Origin: Embleya hyalina
GTDB taxonomy: Bacteria > Actinomycetota > Actinomycetes > Streptomycetales > Streptomycetaceae
Length of the DNA: 64,000 bases
Reading direction: 5' to 3'
Assembly: GCF_003967355.1 (NCBI RefSeq)
Contig: NZ_BIFH01000013.1
Coordinates: forward strand, 194,715-258,714
The translations under genes were made by a program, and so were the position numbers. The notes beneath the pieces were generated by a model, which ran no database searches, was not told the DNA's origin, and saw only the letters and a program-made list of their open reading frames with translations. Below, piece by piece: positions 43-5,719 of the stretch (position 1 is its first letter; the number at the start of each line of letters is the position of its first letter).

Positions 43-618
43 CTAGGCGTTCGCCTTCGCCTTGAGGGTGGCGATGTGGTCGAGGAGGCGGGGGTCGGCG
101 CGGAACCATTCGCCGCGCAGGCGGAGGTCCTGGAACGCCGCGTGCAGGCGGCGTTCGTCGGCGATCGAGCCGGGTTCGGTGTGCAGGACCTCGCCCGGGG
201 CGGACTGGGCCAGCCGGCGGCGCAGGTCGGTGGTGAAGCCGATCTTGATCCGTCGATCGGTGCGGATGAAGTAGACGAGCCCCTCGCCGAGCATGGTGAC
301 CTCGGTGGGTTGTCGGCGCGGGCGCCGGCCGGAGGGGGTCTCCTCCTCGTCGTCGGGTAGGCCGTCGTGGGCGAACTCGCAGGTGGCGGCCACGTGTTCG
401 GCGCACAGCGGAACGGGGGCGTCGGGGAGGGCCGGTGCGCGGCACCCACCGTCGGGGCGGGGCGCGATGCACAGGCCGGTGGCGTCGCTGATGATGACCT
501 CCTCGGCAGGCCGACCATTCCCGGGCTCGTCGACACGACCCCGGGAACTCCCATGTTTCCATCCCGGTCCGACACCGCGACGCCGGGACGGCGATACCGA
601 CGCCGCGACGCCGACCAC
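43..618 (-). CDS. GIY-YIG-like (T5orf172/Mug113-type) nuclease-fold protein
   Basis: 191 aa. The C-terminal half (about residues 112-180) carries the VYFIRTDRRIKIGFT core seen in the T5orf172/Mug113 branch of the GIY-YIG superfamily, followed by an arginine-rich helix and the GEWFR segment. The N-terminal half has cysteines at about 50, 59, 72 and 80 with a CAEH motif, which could form a small zinc knuckle (inference). The GTG at 618 is the only obvious start; a GGGAG lies about 15 nt upstream, so the start is uncertain. It lies 27 nt downstream of the VWA gene on the same strand and may be the last gene of that operon. A nuclease activity is expected from the fold, but the target is unknown. 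Confidence 0.75.
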   Translation of the reverse strand: MVGVAASVSPSRRRGVGPGWKHGSSRGRVDEPGNGRPAEEVIISDATGLCIAPRPDGGCRAPALPDAPVPLCAEHVAATCEFAHDGLPDDEEETPSGRRPRRQPTEVTMLGEGLVYFIRTDRRIKIGFTTDLRRRLAQSAPGEVLHTEPGSIADERRLHAAFQDLRLRGEWFRADPRLLDHIATLKAKANA

Positions 619-645
619 CGAGTGCCGGTGGACTCCCGGAGCAGG

Positions 646-1893
646 TCAGGGAGTTGGGCCGATGGTCACCACATGGGCCCAGTCGGGTGGGAGATCCGGA
701 GTGTAGTCGGGGTCGTCCTCGTTCGCGGAATAGCGGTGGACGCGGGGGAACAGGCCCACCACCGTGCGGCAGGACGGGCGGGTACCGGGCCAGGGGGTCT
801 GACCGTCCGTCAGCACCACGACGACGTCGGGGCGAGGGCTGCCGCGCAGGGCCTTGGCGAAGCCCGAGCGCAGGTCCGTACCGCCACCGCCGAGCAGCGT
901 GATGCCCTCGCCGTCGCACAGCGGTTGTACGATCCGGGCCGCCGCGTCGCACGACACCACGGTGACCAGGTCGCGCCGGCCGCCCACGGCGCGGGAGATG
1001 GCGGCCACTTCGAGGAGGGCGCTGCCCAGTTCGGCGTCGCTCACCGAGGCGGACGTATCGACCACCACGGCCACCCGAGGCGGCTTGCGGCGCAGGCTCG
1101 GCAATACGACGCCGGGCACACCGGCCGAACGGCGGGCGGGTCGGCCGTACGTGTAGTCGTCCGCACCGCCGGCGCCGGCCACCGCCGAGCGCACCGCCGC
1201 GCCCAGCAACTGCCGCCACGGCTGCGGTGGATGGAACACCTCCTCGGCCCACCGCCGCCACGACTTCGAGGCATGGCCGGGCCGACCCCGGATGCCCTGC
1301 GCCACCCGGAACCGGACCGCGTCCCGTTCCTGCTCGCTCAGGCCGTGCGCGCCGTCCGGTCCCAGATCCCACTCCCGATCCAACCCGTCGGCGCCGCTGC
1401 CGCAGTCCAGCCACGCCAGATCCAGCGTGACCAGTCCCATCACGATCTCGCGCAGGTAGGTCTCCATCAACTCGCCCTCGGACAGCTTGAACAAGCCCGG
1501 CAGCACGGCGCCTTCGGGCCGGGGCAGATCGTCGTCGAACGCGTCGTCGTTGATCTCGCAGTCGGCGGCGAGGTTCATCCGCAGCCGGTCCCCGCGACCG
1601 GTCAACCCGCGTTCGCGCGCCACCCGGTCGCTGCGCCCGTGGTGGTCGCGGAGCAGGTGCGACACCTCGTGCACCCACACGGAGGCCAGTTCCTCCTCGG
1701 GTGTCCGGGCCACGAACACCGGCGAGACGTAGCATCGCCAGTGCCGGTCGACGGCCATCGTCGACACCGTCCGCGACTCGACCACGTGCAGCGCGTACAG
1801 GGCGGTGGCCAGGTAGGGGCGGGCGCGGGCGGCGTACAGGCGGGCGGCGTAGAGCTTGTCGAGGTCCAGCACCCCCGGCGCGTCGGCGATCAT
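646..1893 (-). CDS. DUF2201-type putative metallopeptidase / VWA-like domain protein
   Basis: 415 aa. The N-terminal domain contains HEVSH at residues 75-79, a zincin-type HExxH, followed by DCEIND near 111-116. The C-terminal domain is VWA-like: a complete MIDAS with DTSAS at 279-283, GGTD near 338-340 and LTDG near 361-364. This arrangement is the DUF2201 family. The ATG at 1893 overlaps the TGA of the upstream MoxR ATPase (ATGA), which decides the start against longer in-frame readings and indicates translational coupling. MoxR ATPases commonly work with VWA proteins as metal-dependent chaperones, so the pair probably acts together in the cytoplasm. The substrate is unknown. Confidence 0.9.
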   Translation of the reverse strand: MIADAPGVLDLDKLYAARLYAARARPYLATALYALHVVESRTVSTMAVDRHWRCYVSPVFVARTPEEELASVWVHEVSHLLRDHHGRSDRVARERGLTGRGDRLRMNLAADCEINDDAFDDDLPRPEGAVLPGLFKLSEGELMETYLREIVMGLVTLDLAWLDCGSGADGLDREWDLGPDGAHGLSEQERDAVRFRVAQGIRGRPGHASKSWRRWAEEVFHPPQPWRQLLGAAVRSAVAGAGGADDYTYGRPARRSAGVPGVVLPSLRRKPPRVAVVVDTSASVSDAELGSALLEVAAISRAVGGRRDLVTVVSCDAAARIVQPLCDGEGITLLGGGGTDLRSGFAKALRGSPRPDVVVVLTDGQTPWPGTRPSCRTVVGLFPRVHRYSANEDDPDYTPDLPPDWAHVVTIGPTP

Positions 1894-3140
1894 CGGCCGG
1901 CCCGTGCGGTGACCGCGGTTCGGGCCGCCGCCCGGTCCGCGCGCCGGGACAGCGACACCGCCCCGGCCAGCCGCTCGATCGACGCCGGCACCTCCCAGTC
2001 CTGGTCGCGCAGCGAGGCGAGGGTGGTGGCGGGGACGACCACCAGGTCCGGGGCGCCGGTGTCGAGCGCGCGGACCAGGATCGTCCACGCCGCGTCCCAG
2101 CGGGACTTGTCCGGGCGCTTGCGGACCGCCTCGACCACGCCGTCGAGGACGGCCTGACGCAGGTCCCCGCGTTCGGGCAGGATCGCGCGGGTCGGGTCGG
2201 CGAGCAGGTCCTCGGGGTCCGGGAGGTCCATCCGGTCCAGGGCGGCCAGCAGTTCGAGCCCCGGACCGTCCCCGACGGTGCCCCTGATCAGCAGGGACAA
2301 CACCTCGCGGGAGGATCCGGCCGCGGTGGCGAAGGCGATCAGCGACACCGTCATGTCCCAGCTGCGCGGCGACGGCCAGGCGCCACCGCGACGGGCGTCG
2401 GTGGTGGGCAGCAGGTGGACGAGCTTGGGGCGGGTGGTGAGCAGTCCGCAGACCGCGCGGCGGGCGAAGGCCACGGCCTCGGCGAGCCGTGTCGGGTCCA
2501 GGACGGGCAGGGTGGCGTGCGGCCAGGTGCCGCCGAGGCCGCGCACCACGACGTCGTGGTCGTGCACCCACTGGAGGTGTACGAAGCGGTTCGCCATCGG
2601 CGGGCTCAGTTCCCAGCCGTCGGCGGCCGAAGCGCGCGGGTTGGCGGCGGCCACGATCCGGATGCCGGGCGGCAGTCGCAGGGCGCCGACCCGGCGTTCG
2701 AGGACGAGTCGGAGCAGCGCGGCCTGTACGGCCGGCGGCGCGGTGGACAACTCGTCCAGGAACAGCAGTCCGCGTCCGGCGCGCACGAGGCGAACGGCCC
2801 ACTCGGGCGGGGCCATCGGGACACCGTTGGCCGCCGGATCGTCGCCGACGACGGGCAGACCGGAGAAGTCCGAGGGTTCGTGCACGCTGGCGATCACCGT
2901 GGTGAGCGGCAGGTCCAGGGTCTCGGCGAGTTGGGTCAGCGCGGCGGTCTTGCCGATCCCCGGCTCACCCCACAGCAGTACGGGCAGGTCGGCGGCCACG
3001 GCCAGGGTCAGGGCCTCCAGTTGGGGATCGGGGCGGGGCTCGGTGGCGGTGTCCCGCAGGAGGGCCAACAGCTCCGCGGCCACGTCGAGTCGGGAGGCGC
3101 TGCGGGGTGCGGTGGCGGTGAGTGGGGTGTGTGTGGGCAT
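1890..3140 (-). CDS. MoxR-family AAA+ ATPase
   Basis: 416 aa. Walker A is GEPGIGKT (58-65), Walker B is LLFLDE (125-130) and the sensor-1 region is AAANP (about 165). The lid region follows from about residue 230. A ribosome site AAGGTGAT precedes the ATG at 3140. MoxR ATPases remodel or load partner proteins, usually together with a VWA protein; here the VWA gene overlaps it by 4 nt. The gene is second in a minus-strand operon after the 473-aa gene, from which it is separated by 138 nt, so a separate promoter is possible. Family assignment is secure; the substrate is not known. Confidence 0.93.
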   Translation of the reverse strand: MPTHTPLTATAPRSASRLDVAAELLALLRDTATEPRPDPQLEALTLAVAADLPVLLWGEPGIGKTAALTQLAETLDLPLTTVIASVHEPSDFSGLPVVGDDPAANGVPMAPPEWAVRLVRAGRGLLFLDELSTAPPAVQAALLRLVLERRVGALRLPPGIRIVAAANPRASAADGWELSPPMANRFVHLQWVHDHDVVVRGLGGTWPHATLPVLDPTRLAEAVAFARRAVCGLLTTRPKLVHLLPTTDARRGGAWPSPRSWDMTVSLIAFATAAGSSREVLSLLIRGTVGDGPGLELLAALDRMDLPDPEDLLADPTRAILPERGDLRQAVLDGVVEAVRKRPDKSRWDAAWTILVRALDTGAPDLVVVPATTLASLRDQDWEVPASIERLAGAVSLSRRADRAAARTAVTARAGR

Positions 3141-3278
3141 GATTGATCACCTTTTGGGTCGGGTGGGGGGCTTCGGGCGCGCGAAGGTACGCGCCCGCAA
3201 GCGCACACGGCGGCGCGCTCGGCGGCGCACACGTGTGTGCGTCGGCTCGAAGTCCCCGGGTCGGTCGGCGGATTCGCG

Positions 3279-4700
3279 TCAGTGCGGGTTCATGTTCCGG
3301 GGATGGGCGCGGCGGGTGCGTGGGCGGGGACGATCCGGGAGTGGGACGCGCTCGGGCGCCGGTCCGCCCAGGCCCGCTCGGAACAACCCGTGGGTGATCA
3401 ACCGTTCGGCGGCGTCTTCCAGTTCGTCGCGGAGGAGGCCACCGCGCGGTAGTGCGTCGGGGCCGAGCAGGCTCTCGACGACGGCGAGTGCGCCGGCGAT
3501 GTCGCCGTGGTCCAGACGTTCGCGGACGCCCGCGATGCAGTCCGGGCGACGGTGTGCCGCGTCGATGGCCTGGAGGCAGGGCAGCGGGGTGCCGGTCAGC
3601 GCGTGCAGCAACTCCTCGCGACGGATCTCGGCCGGATCGTGGTCGAGCGGCGCCAGGACGCCGTCGACCAGACCGATCCGGTGGCGAGCGCCCCGGCATT
3701 CCACGATGTCGGGTCGTCCCGCCGCGTGGTCCACGAGGGTGGGTGTCGCGCCCGGGACATGGCCCGGTACCAACGCCGCGGCGACCAGCGGGTGCAGCCG
3801 ATCGGGCTCGATCAGACCGGCGCGCAGCAGTTCCAGGTCGGGCGGTATCCAGGTGGCCGCGTCGGGCAGCACCGGCAGCCCGGTGGTGTCGCCGCCGGCG
3901 GGTCGCGCCTCGACGGCCGCGATCCGTACCGTCGGCGGCCCGGGGCCGTCGTCGTCCGCGACCACGCGCAGGACCAGCCGGCGACGGCCCCCGCAGCGCA
4001 CCGCGACCGAGCCGGTGCCGGCGGGTCGCCCCTCGGCCCGGAGCAGGATCGCGGCCTCGGCGGCCCACCGGTCGACGGCGCACTCGGCCGGGACCGGCCC
4101 CCACGCGGCCGGAGCCCGGCCCGAACTCCCGTCGGAGGGCGGCCGATCCGCCCCGGAACGGAGCCACAGCTCGTCGCTGCGGCGGGCGTCCCAGAGATGT
4201 CGGTGCAGGTCCAGGCGGAACCGTCGATGGGGGTGGCGGTGCGGATGGTGACGGAAGCCGGCGGCGTCGCGGTGCGATCCGTCCCACAGGGCGAGGGCGA
4301 TGCGCTGACCCGCGTCCGCCCACGCGGGTGGGGTACGGGCCACCAGGTGCACCGGCCGTGCGCCGCCGTGCTCCCCGACGTCGTACCGCGCCAGGGGCAC
4401 GGTCAGACCCGGGCGCAGCAGCCCGTCGGGAGCGATCCTCGGCATGTGCCAGCGCAGCAGATCCGGTGCCAGACCGCGCAGGTCGTCCCGGATTCGGGCG
4501 GCGAACTCCCCGCCACGCGTGCGGGCTTCGAAGCGGAGATCGATGTCGACGTCGACACCCGCGGCGGTGCAGGCGGCCTGCCAGTCACCGGCCAGCCGGC
4601 GAGTGGTCGCGGTCTCGATCATGGAGGGCGGCACGGCGAACTCGCGCACGCGCAGCCAGAGGGTGAGGCGGGAATCCCGATTCGCGATCGCAGTGAGCAT
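3279..4700 (-). CDS. Uncharacterised MoxR/VWA-associated protein
   Basis: 473 aa from the ATG at 4700, chosen because AAGGTGAG lies 6 nt upstream; the GTG at 4706 leaves no room for a ribosome site. I recognise no catalytic domain. The N-terminal third is well structured (WLRVREFAVPP, then MIETATTRRLAGDW, then DVDIDLR), the middle has a His/Arg-rich stretch (about residues 155-175), and the C-terminal part contains repeated hydrophobic-acidic helices. No signal peptide or membrane segment is visible. As first gene of the operon with the AAA ATPase and the VWA protein, it is the likely adaptor, substrate or third subunit (inference from context). I believe similar genes occur beside MoxR/VWA pairs in other streptomycetes, from memory and unchecked. 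Confidence 0.85.
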   Translation of the reverse strand: MLTAIANRDSRLTLWLRVREFAVPPSMIETATTRRLAGDWQAACTAAGVDVDIDLRFEARTRGGEFAARIRDDLRGLAPDLLRWHMPRIAPDGLLRPGLTVPLARYDVGEHGGARPVHLVARTPPAWADAGQRIALALWDGSHRDAAGFRHHPHRHPHRRFRLDLHRHLWDARRSDELWLRSGADRPPSDGSSGRAPAAWGPVPAECAVDRWAAEAAILLRAEGRPAGTGSVAVRCGGRRRLVLRVVADDDGPGPPTVRIAAVEARPAGGDTTGLPVLPDAATWIPPDLELLRAGLIEPDRLHPLVAAALVPGHVPGATPTLVDHAAGRPDIVECRGARHRIGLVDGVLAPLDHDPAEIRREELLHALTGTPLPCLQAIDAAHRRPDCIAGVRERLDHGDIAGALAVVESLLGPDALPRGGLLRDELEDAAERLITHGLFRAGLGGPAPERVPLPDRPRPRTRRAHPRNMNPH

Positions 4701-4888
4701 CAGCACTCACCTTGCGCGGTGGGGACCCCCAATCCGTGTACGGAGTGAGTAGTCATCGGCAGGAGCCTAGCGCCCTCGACCTCGGAGGGCCAGGGACCCC
4801 CCGGCGTGGGCGGGGACGGGGACGGCGAACGGGTCGGCGCCGAGTGCTCGACGTGCTCGCCGCGCGGGGGCTCGTCGAGAGCGACGCG

Positions 4889-4900: not shown

Positions 4901-5719
4901 ATGGCGATCTTGGAGATGGAGACCGACGCGCGGCTGGCCGTACGGGCGGCGCGGGCGGGTTCGGCCGTGGTACGCGGGATGTACGGGACGTCGCCGGAGC
5001 GGTTCGACAAGGGCGCCGGGGACTTCGCCACGGCCGCCGATCTGGACGCGGAGCAGGCCATCCTGGAGGCCCTCCGCGGCGCGCGCCCCGACGACGCGGT
5101 CACCGGCGAGGAGAGCGGTCACACCGGCACGGCGGGCGCGGAACGCCGGTGGCTGGTCGATCCGTTGTGCGGCACGCTGAACTACGCCGTGGGCAACATG
5201 TTGGTCGCGGTGAACGTGGCCCTGCGAGTGGGTGCCGAGACCGTCGCGGCGGCCGTGGCGGATCCGTTCGCCGACGAGGTGTTCTGGACCGACGGCGCCG
5301 GGGCGTACCGTCGATTCGACGGCGAGGAGCGGGAGTTGGCGCCGTCGTCCGGGTCGCGGCTGGTGGACGTGAACCTCGATCCGCCGTTCCCCAACGCGCC
5401 GTCGTTCCGTGCGGTCCGGCTCCTCGCCGACCCGGACTTCGTCGCGGGCTTCCGGCCGCGCGTGGTGTCCACCACCCTGGCCGTCGCGTGGGTGGCCGCC
5501 GGGCGCCGGGCCGCGTACGTCACCGACGGCGACCTGCGCGACAGCGTGCACTTCACCGCCGGCATCGCCCTGTGCGAGGCCGCCGGTTGTGTGGTGACGG
5601 ACCTGTACGGCCGACCGCCGTACACCGGGGCGGCCGGGCTGATCGCCGCGGCCGACCGGGAAACCCACACCGCACTCCTGGAGATGATCCGCCGGCAGGC
5701 CCCGGCGGCCGACCGGTAG
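4901..5719 (+). CDS. Inositol monophosphatase family protein with altered metal ligands
   Basis: 272 aa, the usual family length. GEESG (about 68-72) keeps the first metal-binding Glu. The second motif reads WLVDPLCGTLNY where active enzymes have DPIDGT: the first Asp is kept and the second is Cys. The third motif, normally WDxAAG, reads VHFTAG, so the last metal-binding Asp is His. Active members dephosphorylate inositol phosphates or related sugar phosphates with Mg2+. Here activity may be lost or the metal changed. The gene stands alone, divergent from the MoxR operon. I recall this DPLCGT variant from other streptomycetes, which argues against recent decay. Start set by ATG 4901. Confidence 0.85.
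   Translation: MAILEMETDARLAVRAARAGSAVVRGMYGTSPERFDKGAGDFATAADLDAEQAILEALRGARPDDAVTGEESGHTGTAGAERRWLVDPLCGTLNYAVGNMLVAVNVALRVGAETVAAAVADPFADEVFWTDGAGAYRRFDGEERELAPSSGSRLVDVNLDPPFPNAPSFRAVRLLADPDFVAGFRPRVVSTTLAVAWVAAGRRAAYVTDGDLRDSVHFTAGIALCEAAGCVVTDLYGRPPYTGAAGLIAAADRETHTALLEMIRRQAPAADR

Follow-up and report, generated by a model that had tools for sequence, protein, structure and literature searches.

A conserved three-gene unit of Streptomyces and related actinomycetes encoding a MoxR-type AAA+ ATPase, a DUF2201/VWA protein and a distinct third component

MoxR-type AAA+ ATPases encoded together with a protein bearing a VWA domain have been described in several settings. In the MoxR-vWA ternary systems of Kaur et al. 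2020 (PMC7159879), the third component is of the VMAP, iSTAND, FtsH or beta-propeller type, and variable effectors are found C-terminal on the vWA protein. Jumbo phages encode a MoxR AAA+ protein with a vWA protein that bears an N-terminal metallopeptidase, and a role in virion assembly has been proposed for this pair (PMC7824862). NorQ-NorD (PMC13036017) and RavA-ViaA (PMC10585395) are MoxR AAA+/VWA chaperone pairs, in which both proteins act together. Here we analyse a window of 64,000 nt (the whole stretch of DNA studied) from the 12 Mb Embleya hyalina assembly GCF_003967355.1 (NZ_BIFH01000013.1, positions 194,715-258,714), which encodes a unit of three genes: a third component, termed P1, a MoxR-type AAA+ ATPase and a DUF2201 protein with a VWA domain (the VWA protein). 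Neither NorQ-NorD nor RavA-ViaA is known to have an HExxH peptidase domain or a P1-like third protein.

The unit resembles the systems of Kaur et al. 2020 in that a MoxR AAA+ protein, a vWA protein and a conserved, distinct third protein are encoded in one operon. P1 has no Pfam family match, and thus is none of the published third components (PMC7159879), although very distant kinship to one of the four types would be missed. Unlike in those systems, the vWA protein here carries an N-terminal DUF2201 putative metallopeptidase, and no effector turnover was seen. The AAA protein scored 16.3 bits against the bpMoxR model, under the cut-off of 27. Because P1 matches no published type and effector diversity is absent, we do not count the triplet among the conflict systems published so far; we regard it as a variant of the MoxR-vWA ternary systems with a new kind of third component. 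The closest published two-gene architecture is that of the jumbo-phage pair, which differs in being phage-encoded and has no reported third protein (PMC7824862). Neither P1 nor the VWA protein of the window had a match in the phage collection searched, and a phage origin of the operon was rejected, with no match in the phages or viral contigs searched. With NorQ-NorD the unit shares the pairing of an AAA and a VWA protein, the AAA protein being a sequence relative of NorQ. Many soil actinobacteria carry the triplet, yet no description of it was found in the open-licence papers searched, and P1 and its C-H-H-C (CHHC) module, described below, are named in no domain database searched.

We tentatively favour the view that the products of the three genes form a ternary, ATP-driven remodelling and proteolysis machine, in which P1 would act as the selectivity subunit. 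If true, this would be an energy-driven machine for handling proteins that is widespread and has a selectivity subunit of its own, and the function of MoxR-metallopeptidase pairs could be tested in it by simple genetics.

Linkage of the three genes and conservation of the AAA and VWA proteins

Linkage of P1 to MoxR/VWA genes had been set beforehand as a test of the original prediction, which read the genes as a compact operon, and the linkage proved strict. P1 homologues were found in 28 of the 61 genomes searched among relatives, and each of the 20 loci for which long flanks were read had the order P1, AAA, VWA on a single strand. Scanning bacterial and archaeal genomes yielded at least 508 stretches encoding P1 relatives, of which the best 80 were fetched; these come mainly from Streptomyces, which is important industrially and medically. 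The full triplet, identical in order and orientation, was present in 78 of the 80, and the remaining two end at contig ends. Among 198 sampled genomes of the class, P1 occurred in 19, and these were the same 19 whose AAA protein reached at least 57% identity. Genomes in which the AAA protein reached just 48-53% identity lacked a full P1. Since P1, AAA and VWA are always found together, they most likely constitute one machine.

The triplet is also carried by four annotated Streptomyces plasmids, where the products are annotated as hypothetical, MoxR/AAA ATPase and VWA-like. At locus L170 a remnant was found that has residues 1-135 of P1 and then the C-terminus of a VWA protein. The body of the operon seems to have been deleted there, as expected if the whole unit were removed by a single deletion.

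The AAA protein has conserved Walker A, Walker B, sensor 1 and Arg-finger motifs and shows the features by which MoxR AAA+ proteins are defined, including a VWA partner. Its solved relatives are midasin, PspF and NorQ. The VWA protein scored over the cut-off for both PF13203 (DUF2201_N, E 3.6e-23) and PF09967 (DUF2201, E 8.8e-14), and the MIDAS residues of its VWA domain are conserved. All P1-linked VWA proteins share a single architecture. Conservation of the HExxH motif, from which the original prediction had drawn proteolysis as a possible output, was complete in these orthologues (110/110: HEVSH 104, HEVAH 4, HEASH 1, HEAAH 1; the counts are not independent of ancestry and a few loci were read twice). 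With the motif intact throughout, proteolysis remains plausible as the output. Among 11 P1-free VWA proteins checked, by comparison, the catalytic Glu was gone in nine, locus L053 (a P1 fragment with HEVSH) being set aside.

In the low-confidence AlphaFold model of the VWA protein, the HExxH motif lies in a helix that is followed by a second helix. A further ligand is probably supplied by NxAxDxEIND (residues 107-116). Matches of the model in the PDB were to VWA domains (Ro60, integrins). The best zincin-type structural match, to the minimal metallopeptidase selecase, was weak, covering about 73 residues with a probability of 0.96 and E 0.38. This match fits a zincin fold, short of proof. Selecase stands alone, unlike the DUF2201/VWA protein of the triplet. 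Going by motif conservation, the DUF2201 domain of the P1-linked protein may be an active zinc metallopeptidase.

Two Streptomyces loci, L224 and L225, hold a second AAA-DUF2201 pair without P1 (L225 5033-7890 and 8624-10606). It was ruled out as the same unit, being a different paralogue. In L225, what looks like the beginning of a DnaK (Hsp70) open reading frame (ORF) comes after the pair.

The P1 family and its CHHC module

The original prediction described the 473-amino-acid (aa) protein as belonging to no known family, and this holds: P1 gave zero matches at E ≤ 1 in Pfam, NCBIfam and PADLOC. A scan of 20 members of the P1 family produced isolated chance-level matches only, as did a sequence search of the PDB with P1 (flagellins and others, E ≥ 0.14). 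P1 was less conserved than its partners in all 3081 pairs compared, with mean identities of 71% for P1, 86% for AAA and 82% for VWA. Its layout comprises a conserved N-terminal part, a variable middle (about residues 176-275) and a conserved C-terminal part. Within the latter, C335, H340, H354 and C375 were invariant in alignments A1 and A3 and in 108 of 108 aligned copies; from its residues, the module that they define may well bind metal.

This module of about 52 aa turns up again in proteins that are otherwise unlike P1 and whose genes lie beside distant AAA-DUF2201 pairs. In most of these pairs the catalytic Glu is gone. Alignment of P1 with the module proteins of L062, L052 and L064 gave an hhalign E of 1.3e-7 over 57 columns. 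The CHHC gene comes immediately 3′ of the VWA gene in L062, is divergent in L052 and L064, and adjoins the VWA gene in L207, L214 and L218; the module was not found beside the AAA-DUF2201 pairs of L065-L067. Two genomes of another class contain 7 and 11 CHHC copies, most of them away from the AAA pair. These dispersed paralogues (L207-L219; genomes G251, G265, G381), up to 11 per genome, differ in their C-termini, and two of them (L210, L216) end in a DUF2087 domain (E 2.8e-21 and 1.5e-23). Across 297 sampled genomes of the phylum, strong CHHC matches were found in 12, all of them among the 22 DUF2201-positive genomes; one further match, in a DUF2201-negative genome, was weak (E 3.5e-4). In nine of the 12 the match is the P1 operon itself, which leaves three genomes of two families as independent support. 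It is possible, if doubtful, that the module works as a portable tag by which proteins dock to AAA-DUF2201 machines. Its bearers would then serve a single ATP-driven machine as clients or alternative adaptors, and this machine would cut where HExxH is intact and only remodel where the Glu is missing.

P1 might instead serve the peptidase as substrate or inhibitor, in which case the AAA-VWA machine would free an output by cleaving or extracting this pro-protein or lock. The one-to-one co-occurrence with an intact HExxH would suit this role, and the variable middle could be a cleavable linker. The CHHC module, however, is common to other third-gene proteins and to dispersed paralogues, which looks more like an interaction module, and we regard a substrate or inhibitor role as quite unlikely.

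A single machine, with remodelling and cutting of a client as its likely output, is supported by the strictness of the triplet, by the conservation of residues in the motor and the VWA protein and by an HExxH that stays intact. As P1 changes fast and its module recurs beside other AAA-DUF2201 pairs, it is best read as the selectivity subunit. In such a machine, the MoxR-type AAA+ ring would engage the VWA protein as motor and co-factor, in the manner of NorQ-NorD and RavA-ViaA, and the zincin-like peptidase domain of the VWA protein would cut, or otherwise act on, the client delivered by the motor. P1 would be an adaptor or sensor, its probably metal-binding CHHC module docking to the conserved AAA/VWA core while the faster-changing remainder recognizes clients.

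Several observations weigh against a machine of this kind. AAA-DUF2201 pairs free of P1 exist, so P1 is dispensable for some such pairs. At L053 (10148-10663, minus strand; genome G105, one of the 19 above), P1 has lost most of its length through a large internal deletion, the start region and CHHC module being kept and AAA and VWA intact; this is perhaps a minimal P1. In a clade whose partners are all of the CHHC type, HxxxH survives but the catalytic Glu has been replaced, hence proteolysis is not a universal output. The faster divergence of P1 would be equally expected of a loosely constrained client. Structural models were also of little help. An AlphaFold model of P1, named in the original prediction as a check, reached a pLDDT of 65 and found nothing in the PDB better than E 1.7, and that of the VWA protein reached 59, its N-terminal domain being the better part.

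The survival of HxxxH after loss of the catalytic Glu would also suit a maturation chaperone, in which the AAA-VWA pair inserts metal into, or remodels, a dedicated client enzyme, P1 being that client and the HxxxH site handling metal instead of cutting. The AAA protein counts NorQ among its solved relatives, metal insertion is driven by NorQD (PMC13036017), and P1 has conserved Cys and His residues. Set against this are the presence of the Glu in every P1-linked copy and the lack of any resemblance of P1 to a known enzyme in Pfam, NCBIfam, PADLOC or fold comparison, and a chaperone of this type appears somewhat unlikely. The natural variants, with HExxH intact beside P1 and the Glu lost beside CHHC-only partners, would allow remodelling to be told apart from cutting in the machine that we favour.

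A small open reading frame upstream of P1

Directly 5′ of P1, a short ORF was found in 94 of 98 distinct loci (97 of 101 reads), its TGA stop sharing the A with the P1 ATG. The loci without it are the four most distant P1 loci examined. The ORF is mostly 17-19 codons long, chiefly 18, with the consensus MTTHSVxRLGVPSAQGEC, and its frame is kept in 94 of 94 distinct overlapping loci despite the changes in length. The ATG of P1 lies 5 nt downstream of the ribosome-binding-site-like AAGGTGAG, which sits in the last codons of the small ORF. A −10-like box (TANNNT or near) was present 7-8 nt 5′ of the small-ORF ATG in 90 of 97 reads. As far as sequence can tell, the transcript is probably leaderless and starts at the small ORF. 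P1, which had been predicted to lead the operon, is indeed the first gene of the triplet, but the first ORF of the transcript is probably the small one. Its translation may feed ribosomes to P1.

Third positions vary least in codons 8-14, so the constraint may act on nucleotides; a conserved peptide was for this reason not established. The ORF is conserved at the nucleotide level, including AGA and TTG codons, which are rare in high-GC actinomycetes. Comparison with base-composition shuffles gave no excess stability for the leader (mean z −0.28), and so no sign of a conserved RNA hairpin. The element occurs only at this operon in the genome of the window, and a stricter pattern gave a single match each in 6 of 31 genomes searched.

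Mycobacteria have leaderless small ORFs of this coupled kind (PMC4633059). The arrangement here is similar, with a small ORF that probably opens the transcript and a stop that overlaps the next start, the transcript start being predicted from sequence in this case. It differs in that several actinomycete genera conserve it ahead of a single gene family.

Neighbouring genes, spread and feature coordinates

The original prediction raised the possibility of a biological-conflict system, with a consistent three-gene set and variable effectors. In such a system, whether anti-phage or self-limiting, P1 would be the sensor and the peptidase the effector. The consistent set is real, and the logic of a core with a distinct third protein is that of the MoxR-vWA ternary systems (PMC7159879). 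No variable effector gene recurs, however, and no fourth gene was found recurring beside the triplet in the fetched loci. Apparent recurrent families 2, 4 and 8, considered as variable effectors, turned out to be antisense ORFs over the VWA gene. Other frequent neighbour families were likewise such antisense ORFs, or common families (e.g. transporters) at scattered positions. Because a heuristic on base composition was used to call the ORFs in the flanks, small flanking genes may be missed.

The Pfam families of the 88 nearest neighbours were ordinary (kinases, MFS, dehydrogenases), mostly of metabolism and transport. Among these neighbours the top PADLOC families had four members each, the same count as the protein kinase domain (25 of 40 PADLOC families listed), consistent with generic kinases. 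No defence-gene neighbourhood was found around the triplet in these 88 neighbours and the four annotated plasmids. Within the triplet, P1 and the VWA protein had no PADLOC match, and the AAA protein gave weak partial P-loop matches only. In addition, P1 was present in 13 of 15 sampled genomes of one genus (g9), more regular than most defence systems. With ordinary neighbours and no recurrent effector, the conflict idea has no positive evidence beyond the fast change of P1 and its apparent mobility, and we consider it unlikely.

That mobility is suggested by the absence of fixed neighbours and by nine plasmid records that hold P1. In the tree, the nearest named relatives of the operon were those of Streptomyces sp. 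SID3343 and Embleya scabrispora. Copies from Nocardia and Streptosporangiaceae formed two well-supported groups among the Streptomyces copies, with deep branches that are weak. Tree placement and plasmid copies suggest transfer between families, short of proof.

In the window, the four genes lie where the original prediction had placed them, all on the minus strand (Table 1). The ATGA overlap of the AAA and VWA genes is real (1890-1893) and was seen again in many homologues; P1 and the AAA gene are spaced by 138 bp, without overlap. The GIY-YIG-like gene, whose product scored over the Pfam cut-offs for MUG113 and T5orf172, does trail the operon on the same strand as predicted. It adjoins the triplet in one other locus only, in a sister species (L030), and was rejected as an effector.

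Table 1. Features of the operon region, in window coordinates
Feature	Coordinates	Strand	Basis or remark
P1, third component of the unit, 473 aa from ATG	3279..4700 (stop codon included)	-	ORF; conserved family always 5′ of AAA gene
MoxR-type AAA+ ATPase, 416 aa	1890..3140	-	AAA_5 and AAA_3 over Pfam cut-offs
DUF2201 protein, N-terminal putative metallopeptidase and C-terminal VWA domain, 415 aa	646..1893	-	Pfam
GIY-YIG-like (MUG113/T5orf172) gene	43..618	-	Neighbour, judged outside the unit; 27 bp 3′ of triplet
CHHC module of P1, residues about 332-384 (C335, H340, H354, C375)	3549..3707	-	Alignments, hhalign
HExxH motif (HEVSH, VWA-protein residues 75-79)	1657..1671	-	Conservation; predicted helix
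18-codon upstream ORF, MTTHSVHGLGVPTAQGEC then stop; stop overlaps P1 start (TGATG)	4700..4756	-	Open and overlapping in 94/98 distinct loci
−10-like box TAGGCT, 7 nt 5′ of small ORF	4764..4769	-	TANNNT or near-match, 90/97 reads

Beyond the leader, a divergent ORF at 4901-5719 on the plus strand reads like an inositol monophosphatase family protein.

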